33,303 nucleotides of DNA from Haloarcula marismortui ATCC 43049 (GTDB lineage Archaea; Halobacteriota; Halobacteria; Halobacteriales; Haloarculaceae): positions 1 to 33,303 of the forward strand of contig NC_006389.1 of assembly GCF_000011085.1 (NCBI RefSeq), in the 5' to 3' direction. Both the position numbers and the translations under genes were made by a program. Each line of letters starts with the position of its first letter. Positions within the stretch are counted from its first letter, which is position 1. Under the pieces are notes generated by a model. It made no database searches. It was not told the DNA's origin and saw only the letters and a list, made by a program, of their open reading frames with translations. Below are positions 17,195-23,426 of this stretch, piece after piece.

Positions 17195-17496
17195 GCTTCC
17201 CGTACAGCGGCCTCCCGCCTAAAACTGCTGGTGCTTAATAAACTAATACAAACCTATCTACAAAACCAGAATATCCCCGTTTCAGGCACTCTATAGTGCA
17301 GTTATTGGCTTCACCGGTTTTGGTAAAGGATATACTGCTATACGGAATTTTGTATATTTTTTCGAATAGGATTTGGTTCTAGACAGCGTCAGGCAGTATA
17401 GATTAGACATTTGAAAGATTAGTTAATATTCGGAGACGGCTCTACTAAGATGCGGAACTCGTTCAGCACCGTTAGACAGGTGTGCGACAGTAAGAG
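17195..17496. other. AT-rich intergenic stretch upstream of the integrase and AAA+ genes
   Basis: This is a divergent promoter region, AT-rich especially near 17215-17240 and 17340-17430. I see no gene. The last part runs into the repeat at 17497. Confidence 0.5.
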
Positions 17497-17524
17497 TTAA
17501 TCTTAAGACTAAGACTAATGTTAA
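17497..17524 (+). repeat. AT-rich repeat, first copy, before the AAA+ gene
   Basis: The core TTAATCTTAAGACTA is followed by AGACTAATGTTAA, so the motif TAAGACTAA is partly doubled. It lies 12 bases before the ATG at 17537, where TBP/TFB or the ribosome would be affected. Matching copies lie at 18463 and 18797. Confidence 0.7.
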
Positions 17525-17536
17525 ACCACTTGTAAA

Positions 17537-18466
17537 ATGACCGATGCGTTCACTGAGGCGCTTGACGAAACGGAGGGTGCGCAAGCCGCCTACGGGAAAC
17601 AACTCGGGTTTGTTGAACAGCGAACTCCGTTCGCTGCGGAGTCGTTACCTGACACAAGTATCGCCGTTAACGTCAATCAAGACTTACTCAAGGAAGTAGC
17701 CAGCCACATTATCAATCGGGCAGGCCACGTCTCGGTAATTGACAAACGTGGAGCTGGCAAAACCCATTTTCGAGAACTTGTCTACGACGCGCTTCGGGAC
17801 GGGCCTCGAAGCGAGGAATTCGCCATCGCGAGAATCAAAGAAGTCGAGTCAATCACAACGCGACGTTTCTACACTCGACTCTTGGACGAACTCCAACGTT
17901 ACGAATATCTCGATATCCCAGAGTCGTACCCGCACGCGACAGACGAAGTCCGATCCGTCGTCGAAGATGTTGCCGGCCAGTTGGAAAATCAAAATCGCTG
18001 TGGCATCATCCAAGTGGATCAGCTCGAAGATGCCGCTCGTCGAAAGAGCACGTTCGAGCAGCTGCTGGCAGGCTTACAGAGTGTCGGTGACCTTGGTGAG
18101 TCTGAACCAGTGTTCTTGCTGTTCCTATTTGGAACGCCTACCGCTGGAGATCGTATCGATGAGCTTCGGGAAACGCTGTCCTCCAGACTAGTCGCGAAAC
18201 ATCGGTCGCTGGAGCGCTTTGAGTTCGCAGAGACTGACGAACTGATCAGCCGGTGGCTAGCCTGGGCTCGGGACGAAGAGTTCACTGAGGGCTATCCAGC
18301 TGACCCATTCAGTGCCGGTGCGATTCGGAAAGTCGTAGACCGATCCGACGGCACACCCCGAGATGTCCGACAGCAATGCTACCACGGCTTTCGTGGTGGA
18401 GCAGAGCAGTATGCCGATACCGGAAAGGTCCGCATCACCGAAGAGACGTTCGAAAGCTACGTTTAA
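17537..18466 (+). CDS. AAA+ ATPase, Orc/Cdc6- or TniB-like, of a plasmid gene pair
   Basis: 309 residues. Walker A is DKRGAGKTHF (69-78). The Walker B strand is GIIQVDQLED (about 156-165), with VDQ in place of the usual DE, so hydrolysis may be weak or use another residue. A sensor-1-like strand is LLFLFGTPTAGDRI. The C-terminal part (about 230-300) is a helical lid-like domain with DGTPRDVRQQCYHG, resembling the sensor-2 region of Orc/Cdc6 ATPases. There is no recognisable C-terminal winged helix, so it is shorter than real Orc1/Cdc6. It overlaps the second AT-rich repeat at its stop codon and precedes an RHH-like gene. A role in partition or replication control is inferred. Confidence 0.7.
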   Translation: MTDAFTEALDETEGAQAAYGKQLGFVEQRTPFAAESLPDTSIAVNVNQDLLKEVASHIINRAGHVSVIDKRGAGKTHFRELVYDALRDGPRSEEFAIARIKEVESITTRRFYTRLLDELQRYEYLDIPESYPHATDEVRSVVEDVAGQLENQNRCGIIQVDQLEDAARRKSTFEQLLAGLQSVGDLGESEPVFLLFLFGTPTAGDRIDELRETLSSRLVAKHRSLERFEFAETDELISRWLAWARDEEFTEGYPADPFSAGAIRKVVDRSDGTPRDVRQQCYHGFRGGAEQYADTGKVRITEETFESYV

Positions 18467-18484
18467 TATTAAGACTAAGGTTAA
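18463..18484 (+). repeat. AT-rich repeat, second copy, between the paired genes
   Basis: The core TTAATATTAAGACTA is followed by AGGTTAA. It spans the stop of the AAA+ gene and ends three bases before the ATG at 18488. Confidence 0.7.
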
Positions 18485-18487
18485 CTC

Positions 18488-18793
18488 ATGGGAGACAATG
18501 CATTTGGCGACGCACTTGACGACGCTGCAGAGGAACAGACAGCAGATGAGACAGACAGCAGTGACGCGACAGAGAGGTTCATCAAGGCGATGGGTGGCGA
18601 CGGCACGAAATCGAAAACAATCGGCTTCGCTGTTAGTCCCGAAATGAAGTACTTCTACGACGAGCTTCGTGCAAGCAATGATGTTGATGTCGATCCGGGT
18701 GACGAATTCCGCGACCAGTTGGAGCGACTGGCTAACCGGCATCCAGAAGTTGCCGATAAGGCCCGTCGGAAGCTCAAAATAGATACAGAGTAA
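18488..18793 (+). CDS. RHH-like DNA-binding partner of the AAA+ ATPase
   Basis: 101 residues. An acidic N-terminal half (about 1-40, DALDDAAEEQTADETDSSD) is followed by a strand-helix-helix module (KTIGFAVSPEMKYFYDELRA, then DEFRDQLERLANRHPEVADK), the layout of ribbon-helix-helix DNA-binding proteins, with a basic tail (ARRKLKI). It follows the AAA+ gene after 21 bases occupied by the shared repeat. In bacterial par loci a small RHH protein binds centromere repeats and recruits an ATPase. The gene order ATPase, binder, repeats is the same here, although the ATPase is AAA+ and not ParA or ParM. Function is inferred. Confidence 0.65.
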   Translation: MGDNAFGDALDDAAEEQTADETDSSDATERFIKAMGGDGTKSKTIGFAVSPEMKYFYDELRASNDVDVDPGDEFRDQLERLANRHPEVADKARRKLKIDTE

Positions 18794-18796
18794 TTC

Positions 18797-18827
18797 TTAA
18801 TATTAAGATTAGTATTAAGGATAAGAC
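18797..18827 (+). repeat. AT-rich repeat, third copy, after the paired genes
   Basis: The core TTAATATTAAGATTA is followed by GTATTAAGGATAAGAC. It starts three bases after the stop of the RHH-like gene. Its position after the last gene argues against a purely promoter role for the repeat family. Confidence 0.7.
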
Positions 18828-19170: not shown

Positions 19171-19288
19171 AAGTGAATAGCAATCAGAGGGTAGTAGCTG
19201 TTCGCATATATGTGGTTTATATCGATGATGCAGAGCTTTGTAGTGAGGATAGGGTACATATCTGCTTTCGAATAGTTTGGACAAGACA

Positions 19289-19571
19289 CACACACCAAAT
19301 TTTGAGTAAGAAGATAGAAGACTGCGGGCTATGAGGCCACATTACGGCACCTCGGTAGCTGTTCTTATTCCAAACTAGGTGTGTCTCTCTAGTCTAGTTA
19401 TTCTAGTATGTAGTGTAGCATATGTGTACAGTCCTACTAGATGGACTGAAACAGTCTTAGACGTGTCCTCCCCTGTCACACTTTATCTGTTTCTTACTCC
19501 AAACTAGGTGTGTGTGTCATACAGTTCCTTACTCAAAATCTGGTGTGACTGGGCCAAGTTTTGTGTAAGGC
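19289..19571. other. Probable replication origin with ORB-like repeats
   Basis: Repeats of the form TTCTTACTCCAAACTAGG followed by TGTGTG lie at 19362-19385, 19491-19514 and (as TCCTTACTCAAAATCTGG plus TGTGAC) 19526-19549, all forward. A reverse-oriented copy is at 19289-19312 and a shorter reverse copy at about 19554-19571. Inverted outer copies flank an AT-rich, CTAG-rich centre (about 19385-19490), the usual layout of archaeal origins: origin recognition boxes around an unwinding element, directly upstream of an orc1/cdc6 gene. The box sequence differs from the common haloarchaeal ORB, as expected when each Orc has its own boxes. An additional hairpin CAGTCC/GGACTG lies at 19429-19448. Confidence 0.85.
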
Positions 19572-19668: not shown

Positions 19669-20877
19669 ATGGATAGTGACGATGAATCGGAAGCCGTTCA
19701 TAGCGTCTTTAATACCGTCAGTCAGGAAGGAGGAAAAATTTTTGAGCAGCGAGAGATCCTCCAGATTGACTATGTCCCCAGCGAGAATCGGATTGTCGGT
19801 CGCGACGAGCAAATTGAGAAGGTTGCTGGAGAGATTGGACCAATTGTTGTTGGTCAGCCACCGAACTCTATCATCATCTACGGAAAAACAGGGTGTGGTA
19901 AATCCCTCGTCGCAAAACACGTCTCTAAGATTGCACGAGAAGAGGCTGAAAATCGAGGCGTGAAACTTGCTACTGGATATGTCAACTGCCAGCAGGCAAA
20001 GGGTAACTCTGACGCTCTAAGTAAGTACGGGCGCGCTATCAATCCGCCAGAAAGTGGGGTAAAATTCCCAACCCGAGGAATTTCTGAAAATGAGTATTTT
20101 GAGCGAGTCTGGTCAGTGCTCAACGAGTTTTATGATGCTGCAATCATTGTTCTGGATGAAGTTGACAAACTCAACAACGATGATCTGCTGATGGCGCTTT
20201 CTCGAGCAGGAGAGGACGGAAGCGTTGATGTCCCGATCGGAGTGATTGCGGTATCGAATAAAATCAATTATCGGGACAAAATGAGCGAACGAACAAAGAG
20301 TTCGTTCGGGCACAATGAGTTCATATTTGAACCATACGATGCAGATCAGATTCGAGAGATTTTGCAAAACCGGACTGATGCCTTCGCAGATGGAGTTCTT
20401 GATGACGGTGTAATTCCTCGTGCTGCGGCACTGAGCGCTAAGGAACACGGGGACGCGCGAAAGGCCATGCGTCTTCTTCGGTATGCTGGCGATCAGGCAA
20501 ACAAAGAGAATGCTGAGCGAGTGAAAGAGTCACACCTTACTGATGCACGCGCTTCAGCAGAGGTTGACCGACTTCTTGAACTCATATCAGGACTGCCACC
20601 CCATAGCAAGCACGTCTTACTCGCGCTCGCGAACCTCACTAAGAATCACCCTGACCGAGAATGGTTCCGGACTGTGCGAGTCCGTGAAATATATCTTGAA
20701 GTGTGCGACCGGAGCGGGGCCGACCCTCTTTCGGCTGAGCGAACCCGACAATTACTCAACGAACTCTGCTTCTTAGAAGTCGCAGGGAGTCGGCGAGGGA
20801 CTGGTGAGGGCAAAGGACACTACAGCCAATATACTCTCCTGTGGGACGCAGATATCGTTCTTACCCTCGGTAACTGA
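19669..20877 (+). CDS. cdc6: Orc1/Cdc6 replication initiator
   Basis: 402 residues from ATG 19669. The upstream GCTTATTT at about 19637-19644 lies the right distance for a leaderless transcript, so the longer open frame from 19561 is not used. Walker A is YGKTGCGKSL (71-80) and Walker B is VLDEVDKL (161-168). Sensor 1 follows in GVIAVSNKINYRD and the sensor-2 region is HGDARKAMRLLRYAG. The C-terminal ~110 residues are a winged-helix domain (LLELISGLPPHSKHVLLALA onward). This is the family that binds origin recognition boxes and loads MCM. It lies beside the repeat cluster and should be the plasmid initiator. Nothing is missing compared with the family. Confidence 0.93.
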   Translation: MDSDDESEAVHSVFNTVSQEGGKIFEQREILQIDYVPSENRIVGRDEQIEKVAGEIGPIVVGQPPNSIIIYGKTGCGKSLVAKHVSKIAREEAENRGVKLATGYVNCQQAKGNSDALSKYGRAINPPESGVKFPTRGISENEYFERVWSVLNEFYDAAIIVLDEVDKLNNDDLLMALSRAGEDGSVDVPIGVIAVSNKINYRDKMSERTKSSFGHNEFIFEPYDADQIREILQNRTDAFADGVLDDGVIPRAAALSAKEHGDARKAMRLLRYAGDQANKENAERVKESHLTDARASAEVDRLLELISGLPPHSKHVLLALANLTKNHPDREWFRTVRVREIYLEVCDRSGADPLSAERTRQLLNELCFLEVAGSRRGTGEGKGHYSQYTLLWDADIVLTLGN

Positions 20878-21034: not shown

Positions 21035-21781
21035 ATGAGCTACAGTGATGAGGAACTCCTGACCCACATCCGAGAGCTGGCAGCAGAACTCGGTGAAACA
21101 CCCTCAGTGAATCAAATGAGTGCCGCAGAGGGACGCCCAAGCGGGAGTACATACCGGCACCGGTTTGACTCATGGAGTGACGCCGTCGAGCAGGCGGGGG
21201 TAGAACCAACCGACCAATCAGGTCCATACACCAAGACAGAACTGTTAGAACATATCCGGGCGCTTGCAACCGAGCTAGGTCGGCCACCGACATTGGAAGA
21301 TCTGAATGCGGATGACGATCGCCCGAGTTTCAAGCCATACCGTCGGGTATTCGACACGTGGAATGCCGCGCTTACCGCCGCCGGGTTTGACCCAAATCAC
21401 GCTATGTCACACACGGAGCCAGAGGGGTACTCTGACGCCGAATTGCTCACACATATTCAAGAATTAGCCGAAGAGTTAGGGCGACCGCCGACGCAAGATG
21501 AAATGCATCAGGCCGATGACCGGCCCAGCGAAAGTACGTATAAGCGACGATTCGAGTCCTGGACCAGCGCAATTGAGGAGGCGGGTTTTGACTCGGGTCG
21601 AAAAACTAGCTCATACTCTGAAGCCGAATTACTGGATCTGCTTCGGGACTTAGCTACCGAACTTGGTGAAACGCCGTCAGTGCAGCAGTTGAATGCTGCC
21701 GAGGACTATCCGAGCCGAGCAGTGTACAGGAATCGATTCGGTTCGTGGAGCGCGGCGTTGGAGGCCGCTAATTTGGAGTGA
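21035..21781 (+). CDS. Protein of four homing-endonuclease-associated repeats
   Basis: 248 residues built of four units of about 55-60 residues with the pattern YS-x-x-ELL-x-HIRELA-x-ELG-x-PT, then RPS-x-S-x-Y-x-RF-x-SW, then A-x-x-AGF. The units start near residues 3, 65, 131 and 193 and are separated by short variable linkers. This is the HNH-associated (homing endonuclease-associated) repeat found beside nucleases in haloarchaea, where it is thought to bind DNA helically. No nuclease motif is present here, so the protein may be a stand-alone DNA binder. The start ATG 21035 lies 38 bases after a TATA-poor region. Neighbours give no direct clue. Confidence 0.8.
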   Translation: MSYSDEELLTHIRELAAELGETPSVNQMSAAEGRPSGSTYRHRFDSWSDAVEQAGVEPTDQSGPYTKTELLEHIRALATELGRPPTLEDLNADDDRPSFKPYRRVFDTWNAALTAAGFDPNHAMSHTEPEGYSDAELLTHIQELAEELGRPPTQDEMHQADDRPSESTYKRRFESWTSAIEEAGFDSGRKTSSYSEAELLDLLRDLATELGETPSVQQLNAAEDYPSRAVYRNRFGSWSAALEAANLE

Positions 21782-22034: not shown

Positions 22035-23426
22035 ATGTTCGAGAAAATCGCTAACGAGAACGAACGCGGGCAGGTCGGGATTGGCACCCTCATCGTGTTC
22101 ATCGCGATGGTGCTAGTCGCGGCCATTGCCGCGGGCGTGCTCATCAACACGGCCGGGTTCCTGCAGTCCAGTGCAGAACAGACCGGTCAGGAATCGAGTG
22201 ATCAAGTAACAAACCAGATTCAGGTCGCATCAAAAGTCGGGATCGTGGGCGGTCAGGGTGCATCTGATACCATTGCGATCCAGTCTCCGTCCGGAAATCA
22301 GTTTGCGATAGAATCTGGGTCTACGGTCACCGCAACTGAAGTCACCGATAATAACGATGACGGATACATTTTAGTTGATTCTCCGCAAGGTAACGAACTT
22401 GCAGTAGATGGTGGAGACCAAATCAGATTGACGAGAGAAAGTGGCTCACAGGTCGAGATTACTAATGAGGACACTGGCGTCTCAATCACTAGCTCTAAGC
22501 TAGACCTGAAAGACGCTAGTGGAAGTGATACGCTAAAATTCGTTCGGACATATGAAGATCCAGTTAATGGTCAACTGCAACTGCAGTCCGTGACTATAGA
22601 CAATACTGGTACTGCAGATAGCACCGACGATGGGGTCTCAGCAACCCTTTCGACTGGTGAAAATACTGAAAAATACATTCCACTTACCGATGGAAGTAGT
22701 AAAGCGATCATCGGGAACGGAGAAACAGTCACGGTGACCTCTGACAGCGATAGCGGTTCAACTCTTAGTGCTGGGGCTGAAACCCTGAGTGTTGACCCTG
22801 GAGACGAGGTGTTGTTTGAAGTCACCGGTGACAGCGAGGTTACCATTACAAATCAAGAAAGTGGGAGTTCCATTTCCTACAATCCCTTGGATGGCAGTAA
22901 CTACCTCAGTGGTACTGCTGGATCTGGCAGCACCCTGAAGCTCTCGGTAAGCGACGACGGGTCTGCTACCAGCCTTGACGTTACCTCCGGACTTACTGGT
23001 CTTACGACCGGAGATTTCGCAACCGGGCCTGGTAACGAGATTCAGCTGGTCAATGAGGATTACAACGCCGGCGGTGGTGGCGTTGGTACGCTCAATATTG
23101 TCGCGATCAAAGGTTCCGGTGCCGACCAAATTAACATGGAAGAGACCACGATCACGACAATCGGTCCGGATGGCACCAATACGCTAACCTACAGCGATGA
23201 CGGTGCCACCGAGGACCAGACCTTCGCTGTCGAATCAATTCAGGATGACGACGACTCACTGCCAGTGATGACTGACTCGGATCGATTCCGAGTCGTTATT
23301 GACCCAGGGACACTCGAAACCGGCGAAACGATGACTCTCGAAGTCACGACGGAGTCCGGTGCAACCACCGAGATTCGGATCAGCGTTCCGAATACCCTGG
23401 CTGGCGAGTCCGCCGTTCAGGTATAA
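22035..23426 (+). CDS. flaA2: Archaellin (archaeal flagellin)
   Basis: 463 residues. A class III signal peptide begins [12 protein letters not shown], with cleavage by the FlaK/PibD peptidase expected after G12, before [20 protein letters not shown]. That hydrophobic helix forms the filament core. The rest is a secreted, acidic, Ser/Thr/Gly-rich beta domain with several Asn-x-Ser/Thr sequons (for example NPLDGSN, NDDG with NTGT) that may be glycosylated. It is a single gene with its own promoter and terminator. No other archaellum gene (flaI, flaJ, chaperones) is nearby, so it depends on chromosomal machinery. From memory, H. marismortui carries an archaellin named flaA2 on pNG100 beside flaB on the chromosome; this gene fits. 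Confidence 0.9.

Follow-up and report, generated by a model that had tools for sequence, protein, structure and literature searches.

The plasmid pNG100 (also deposited as pHMA33) of Haloarcula marismortui ATCC 43049 carries two adjacent genes, for an AAA+ ATPase and a small RHH-like protein, which are preceded, separated and followed by short DNA repeats, and the question raised by this locus is whether the two proteins and their repeats serve the stable inheritance of the plasmid or some other process. The window, i.e. the whole 33-kb stretch of DNA analysed here, is that plasmid. Protein A (309 aa; 17537–18466, + strand) has the Walker A sequence GAGKT and the Walker B sequence VDQ and lacks a winged helix, and protein B (101 aa; 18488–18793, + strand) is a putative array-binding adaptor. 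The original prediction, made from the sequence of the window, offered either a partition locus unlike ParABS and ParMRC or a replication switch.

The 15-base core that was predicted to occur three times, once at each gene boundary (TTAATMTTAAGAYTA), was confirmed on the + strand with 0 mismatches at 17497–17511, 18463–18477 and 18797–18811, and when up to 2 mismatches were allowed, 8 overlapping matches were obtained, all at these three sites (shuffle mean 0.05). Each core is part of a longer array with a strict 6-bp period. Array 1 (17496–17525, + strand; units GTTAAT CTTAAG ACTAAG ACTAAT GTTAAA) consists of five tandem hexamers ending 11 bp 5' of the ATG of protein A, and is proposed to act as both operator and centromere site; array 2 (18462–18485, + strand; TTTAAT ATTAAG ACTAAG GTTAAC) has four tandem hexamers that run across the end of gene A, overlapping its stop codon, and lie just 5' of B; and array 3 (18796–18825, + strand; CTTAAT ATTAAG ATTAGT ATTAAG GATAAG), with five tandem hexamers 3' of B, occupies a convergent gap, a non-promoter position, and is proposed as a centromere site. 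There were no other arrays in the 33-kb window (null mean 0.125 matches), and a scan of the 4.27-Mb H. marismortui genome with a strict 22-bp pattern spanning four units matched the arrays at the pair and nothing else. When 89 distinct arrays were compared, those of the window together with those of relatives, the unit emerged as NYTAAN, most commonly CTTAAG, with 4 to 6 units per array. Relatives likewise have 6-bp-periodic arrays before A and before B, within ~30 bp of the gene starts, and a third block 3' of B is seen in a minority of them.

The survey for the gene pair that had been proposed was run on 391 Halobacteria genomes and revealed strict co-occurrence: the full A family was present in 24 genomes and B in the same 24 of 24, with four further genomes holding B fragments only. 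The gene order A-B was constant in the relatives, mostly with 21–30 nt between the genes (2 nt in the relative G208), and the locus has the layout of a tripartite partition system, with a linked NTPase, a small putative DNA-binding protein and iterated sites. Whole-genome scans with the strict 22-bp pattern covered 16 genomes, ten with the pair and six without; among the matches listed, 37 were found in nine pair-carriers, every one on a pair-bearing contig, and there were zero matches in the six genomes without the pair, compared with 6 matches for a reversed-pattern control in the same 16 genomes. The tenth pair-carrier (G375) had none under the strict pattern, its arrays being present at a relaxed threshold. 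A degraded B (81% identity to the C-terminal part) was observed on a plasmid of Haloarcula sp. CBA1115 (L096, 4975–5210), where the downstream array is still present and a ParA-family gene and a TnpB gene lie nearby. The draft genome G358 has two near-identical A-B pairs with similar arrays, on contigs C35 and C36; these would be awkward for a partition function if they are on separate plasmids, and whether they belong to one replicon or two bears on incompatibility.

Larger plasmids carry further arrays, the nearest a few hundred bases and the farthest ~25 kb away from the pair, with none in the remaining tens of kilobases examined beyond that distance; neither pNG100 nor the 29.8-kb CP031300 has such additional arrays. 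In six annotated regions, the extra arrays were intergenic in 23 of 23 cases (overall intergenic fraction 0.265), all 23 were more than 60 bp from the nearest annotated start, and 17 of the 23 fell between convergent genes, against an expectation of 23% from the share of convergent gaps in the intergenic sequence. Some of the plasmids counted are related and have arrays in common, notably at the divergent gene pair described below, and probabilities derived from these counts are therefore too small. Being intergenic, away from starts and often convergent, the extra arrays look like centromere sites rather than operators, and an operator at the genes together with non-promoter sites elsewhere is the pattern expected of an autoregulated partition adaptor.

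On several plasmids, hexamer arrays were found at both 3' sides of a conserved divergent pair encoding an ArsR-like protein of 158 aa and a protein of 260 aa that had no match in Pfam (L117, 17812–19186; L119, 1124–2498; L118, 27125–28499; L121, 18929–20303), which is possibly an accessory of the array system. A further repeated element (L003–L007, L010–L012, L015 and others; G000:C6, 75650–139782) is the inverted repeat TTAACCAAC-N21-26-GTTGGTTAA, whose spacers are unrelated to one another. It was observed at 10–24 copies per genome, mainly plasmid-borne or clustered, and the reversed control showed no such recurrence. It was considered as a second site of the system and rejected, as it is absent from the window, common on other replicons and unlinked to the pair; it probably represents the sites of some other protein.

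Protein A had been described as an Orc-like AAA+ protein, of which the AAA+ core and an ORC/Cdc6-like predicted fold were upheld. The Pfam family AAA_22 matched 20 of 21 A members (best E 3.7e-12), with the match for the A of the window (P0001) below the Pfam cut-off. In the predicted model (mean pLDDT 67; >80 for most of residues 91–200), A scored Z 12–14 against AAA+ chains by VIA, in which differences under 1 were treated as ties, and it aligned with TnsC (Z 13.9), ORC/Cdc6 (about 13) and MuB (12.7), TnsC and MuB being the top structural neighbours. The protein ends after the lid and matches neither Cdc6_lid nor Cdc6_C, both of which are matched strongly by the neighbouring Orc, and thus does not have the AAA+ core followed by a Cdc6-type winged helix that defines Orc1/Cdc6. 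Nor does it have the deviant Walker A of type I ParA proteins with its signature lysine (KGGxxK[ST]): K, E, R or T precedes xGAGK[TS] across members, so the signature lysine is not conserved, and A had no ParA family match in Pfam or NCBIfam. NCBIfam returned nothing credible and PHROGs no match for A, comparison with the sequences of solved structures gave chance matches only, and a scan of viral contigs found no relative. Protein A thus fits the definition of an AAA+ protein, but not those of ParA and Orc1/Cdc6 proteins.

The degenerate Walker B noted in the original prediction is a consistent property of the plasmid family, in which A keeps Walker A (GAGKT/S), D161 and E164, and in which the residue after D161 is Gln in every plasmid member read (VDQ[LM]ED), compared with Glu (VDE) in the chromosomal paralogues read. 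Protein A consequently does not have the catalytic Glu that follows the Walker B Asp in hydrolysing AAA+ proteins. A Glu-to-Gln change in the Walker B of AAA+ proteins normally leaves ATP binding and removes hydrolysis; MuB and TnsC keep the catalytic Glu. The chromosomal AAA+ family, with ~30% identity to A, was found in many Haloarcula and other genomes, at G000:C8:2564274–2565134 in H. marismortui and at 50-odd other haloarchaeal loci, and no B homologue was found beside the H. marismortui paralogue.

The description of protein B as RHH-like agrees with its sequence pattern and with a predicted strand-helix-helix order, but no homology or fold match confirmed it. The model, of moderate confidence (pLDDT 64), has a loose N-terminus, an extended stretch and helices at 51–62 and 70–84, in the order expected of RHH proteins. 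Neither Foldseek nor VIA matched B to an RHH fold, but this null result is not evidence against one, since a single strand makes a poor query when its dimer partner is missing; an hhalign comparison of B with five known RHH proteins (about 1%) was uninformative. No credible family was obtained in Pfam or NCBIfam, PHROGs matches were at chance level, and matches to the sequences of solved structures were likewise chance only. The two proteins share a similar N-terminal motif (17537–17590 in A and 18488–18540 in B; L037, 1468–1540 and 2442–2560), which is weak in most relatives and clearest in G208 (shuffle p 0.0005), where A has TDALEDDPFGEAIDRAET and B has TDEGEDDPFGDAMDAAES; it is a possible contact surface between A and B.

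A link between B and the arrays comes from G208, in which both have changed. The predicted RHH strand of its B reads KMLSIRV, where other relatives have KTIGIAV or close variants, and the TTAA arrays are missing, with AACGNN units in their place, again at a 6-bp period. One set of these units precedes A; another falls within the start of B and there doubles as coding sequence for a DN-rich stretch. Of the 9 strict AACG matches in the G208 genome, 6 are on the 150-kb pair-bearing contig, two of the six overlapping. The joint change of strand and unit, which is a single evolutionary event, links B to the arrays and is in keeping with an RHH fold for B. Overall, the analysis strongly suggests that B binds the arrays.

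The replication and partition genes around the pair vary. In pNG100, a putative replication origin (19285–19553) lies outside the cassette, with origin-box-like repeats at 19285–19312 (inverted), 19362–19389, 19491–19518 and 19526–19553, and is followed by an Orc1/Cdc6 initiator gene (19669–20877, + strand); an orc/cdc6-adjacent origin was predicted earlier for this plasmid (PMC3528665). Adjoining the orc gene is a gene (21035–21781) for a protein of four homing-endonuclease-associated HNH_repeat units, in which a domain search found no nuclease domain, and the window also holds a plasmid-borne archaellin gene (22035–23426; Pfam Arch_flagellin), pNG100 being included in a study of salt-dependent archaellin regulation (PMC6528647). 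An Orc1/Cdc6 gene was present within a few kb of the pair in about half of the loci examined, in either orientation, the proteins belonging to lineages ~30% identical to each other; no Orc was found in about half of the loci, several of them short contigs, and no Orc1/Cdc6 could be detected on a complete 29.8-kb plasmid that carries the pair. Occurring with different Orc lineages or with none, the pair behaves as a module joined to different replication systems. Among the H. marismortui replicons, pNG100 alone had no ParA-family match (cut-off E 1e-5); six further pair-bearing contigs were without a ParA match, and G371:C21 had only a weak one. Four larger replicons hold both ParA and the pair, which therefore need not be the only partition system, and the association between ParA and the pair was weak across the replicons of five genomes assembled in few contigs (Fisher p 0.048). 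These observations suggest, though they do not prove, that the pair is able to take over the ParA niche.

Our best reading, which we regard as reasonably probable, is that the AAA+/RHH-like pair and its arrays constitute a plasmid partition cassette. The co-occurrence of A and B, the confinement of the arrays, the co-change in G208 and the frequent absence of ParA all agree with the predicted partition locus unlike ParABS or ParMRC, as do the delta-omega-like layout, the fold matches of A to the DNA-binding AAA+ ATPases TnsC and MuB, and the module-like combination of the pair with different Orc lineages or none. The gene pair, the arrays with their distribution and the co-change are direct observations, whereas DNA binding by B, contact between A and B, nucleoid binding by A and partition itself are inferred. 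B, as an RHH-type adaptor, would bind arrays of about four or more tandem 6-bp units; the arrays at the pair, which overlap the start regions of A and B, would mediate autorepression, and array 3 of pNG100 and the extra arrays of larger plasmids would be centromere sites. Protein A, as a TnsC/MuB/ORC-type AAA+ protein, would bind ATP and probably host DNA non-specifically and would stand in for ParA; engaged by B-array complexes, it would let plasmid copies be carried on the nucleoid or travel along it. With Gln in the position of the catalytic Walker B Glu, ATP hydrolysis by A is probably slow or absent; this residue speaks against ATP cycling of the ParA kind and would favour a tether over a fast ratchet. 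More tentatively, with a likelihood that we place a little short of even, the locus may represent a new partition class, in which a TnsC/MuB/ORC-clade AAA+ ATPase with a Walker B Gln replaces ParA, actin or tubulin and is coupled by an RHH adaptor to scattered hexamer-array centromeres.

The arrangement of the arrays also bears on the other explanations. The position of those at the pair, within ~30 bp of the A and B starts, makes autoregulation likely in any case, and would suit an autoregulated transcription regulator or regulon in which B acts as the repressor of genes at the arrays and A as its co-factor; this is unlikely, however, given that none of the 23 extra arrays is near an annotated start, that most lie between convergent genes and that the window's own array 3 likewise falls between convergent genes. 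The same convergent positions, as well as the MPF_T genes on several host plasmids, could instead point to an organiser or insulator of plasmid DNA, with B coating the arrays and A bridging them for compaction, a block to read-through or an aid to conjugation, but this we consider improbable, as the arrays cluster near the pair rather than being spread over the plasmid, and small non-mobilizable plasmids carry the pair with three arrays only.

The predicted structure of A gives rise to two further proposals. Its ORC/Cdc6-like AAA+ fold, and the orc1/cdc6 gene near the pair in about half of the loci, would be consistent with a replication or copy-number switch in which an Orc-like A controls, with B, the firing of the neighbouring origin. 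That part of the original prediction did not hold up well and we judge it rather unlikely: A has no winged helix, extra arrays are found in convergent gaps as far as ~25 kb from the pair, and the Orcs that accompany the pair are divergent, in either orientation, or, on the complete 29.8-kb plasmid, undetectable. The structural resemblance to TnsC and MuB could likewise indicate a target-selection ATPase for transposition, with arrays as element ends or immunity sites, but no DDE transposase gene adjoins the pair in pNG100, the neighbours vary between plasmids, and resident plasmids have several arrays each, grouped close to the pair, making this very improbable. Partition remains our preferred reading of the locus. 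Active partition systems are classed by their NTPase into ParA, actin and tubulin types (PMC9178275), and an AAA+ ATPase in this role would, if true, be a further type beside these. The segregation by haloarchaea of their many plasmids is poorly known, and the conserved Walker B Gln raises the question of whether ATP binding could suffice when hydrolysis is not fast. This small locus is carried by a 33-kb plasmid of a cultured strain and yields direct predictions for binding, localisation and plasmid loss.

Literature searches gave no description of this A-B pair; there is published precedent for an AAA+ protein in the role that ParA has. The haloarchaeal chromosomal paralogue shares motifs and ~30% identity with A over the AAA+ region but differs in its intact VDE Walker B and the lack of a detected B homologue beside it, while archaeal Orc1/Cdc6 proteins share the AAA+ initiator-type fold predicted for A and differ from it in their winged helix, in the Orc1/Cdc6 models that A does not match and in the Walker B Gln of A. 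MuB and TnsC, the best structural neighbours, serve transposition and have neither an RHH partner nor hexamer arrays; MuB binds DNA non-specifically in an ATP-dependent manner and is steered by a site-specific partner (PMC7350765). Among archaeal partition systems, SegAB of Sulfolobus also combines an ATPase with a site-specific adaptor (putative in the present case) and has sites upstream of the genes (PMC5120986), but SegA is ParA-like and the SegB sites are imperfect palindromes rather than hexamer arrays. AspA-ParBA of pNOB8 is similarly an archaeal plasmid system with a DNA-binding adaptor and a site upstream of the adaptor gene (PMC5120986), but has a ParA-type ATPase, a wHTH adaptor, a third protein (ParB) and a 23-bp palindrome. 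The closest known system in logic and layout is delta-omega of pSM19035, which pairs an RHH protein with an ATPase of the ParA type. Its six parS sites, each with 7–10 repeats of seven bases, span the promoters of copS, delta and omega, and full stimulation of the ATPase requires 4 or more contiguous repeats (PMC9499535). Both systems have an ATPase gene with a gene for a small RHH or RHH-like protein, arrays of short non-palindromic repeats over the gene promoters and several sites per plasmid, whereas Delta is a ParA Walker ATPase and A of pNG100 an AAA+ protein, and the pNG100 family has a unit of 6 bp instead of 7, with extra arrays in convergent gaps up to ~25 kb away.
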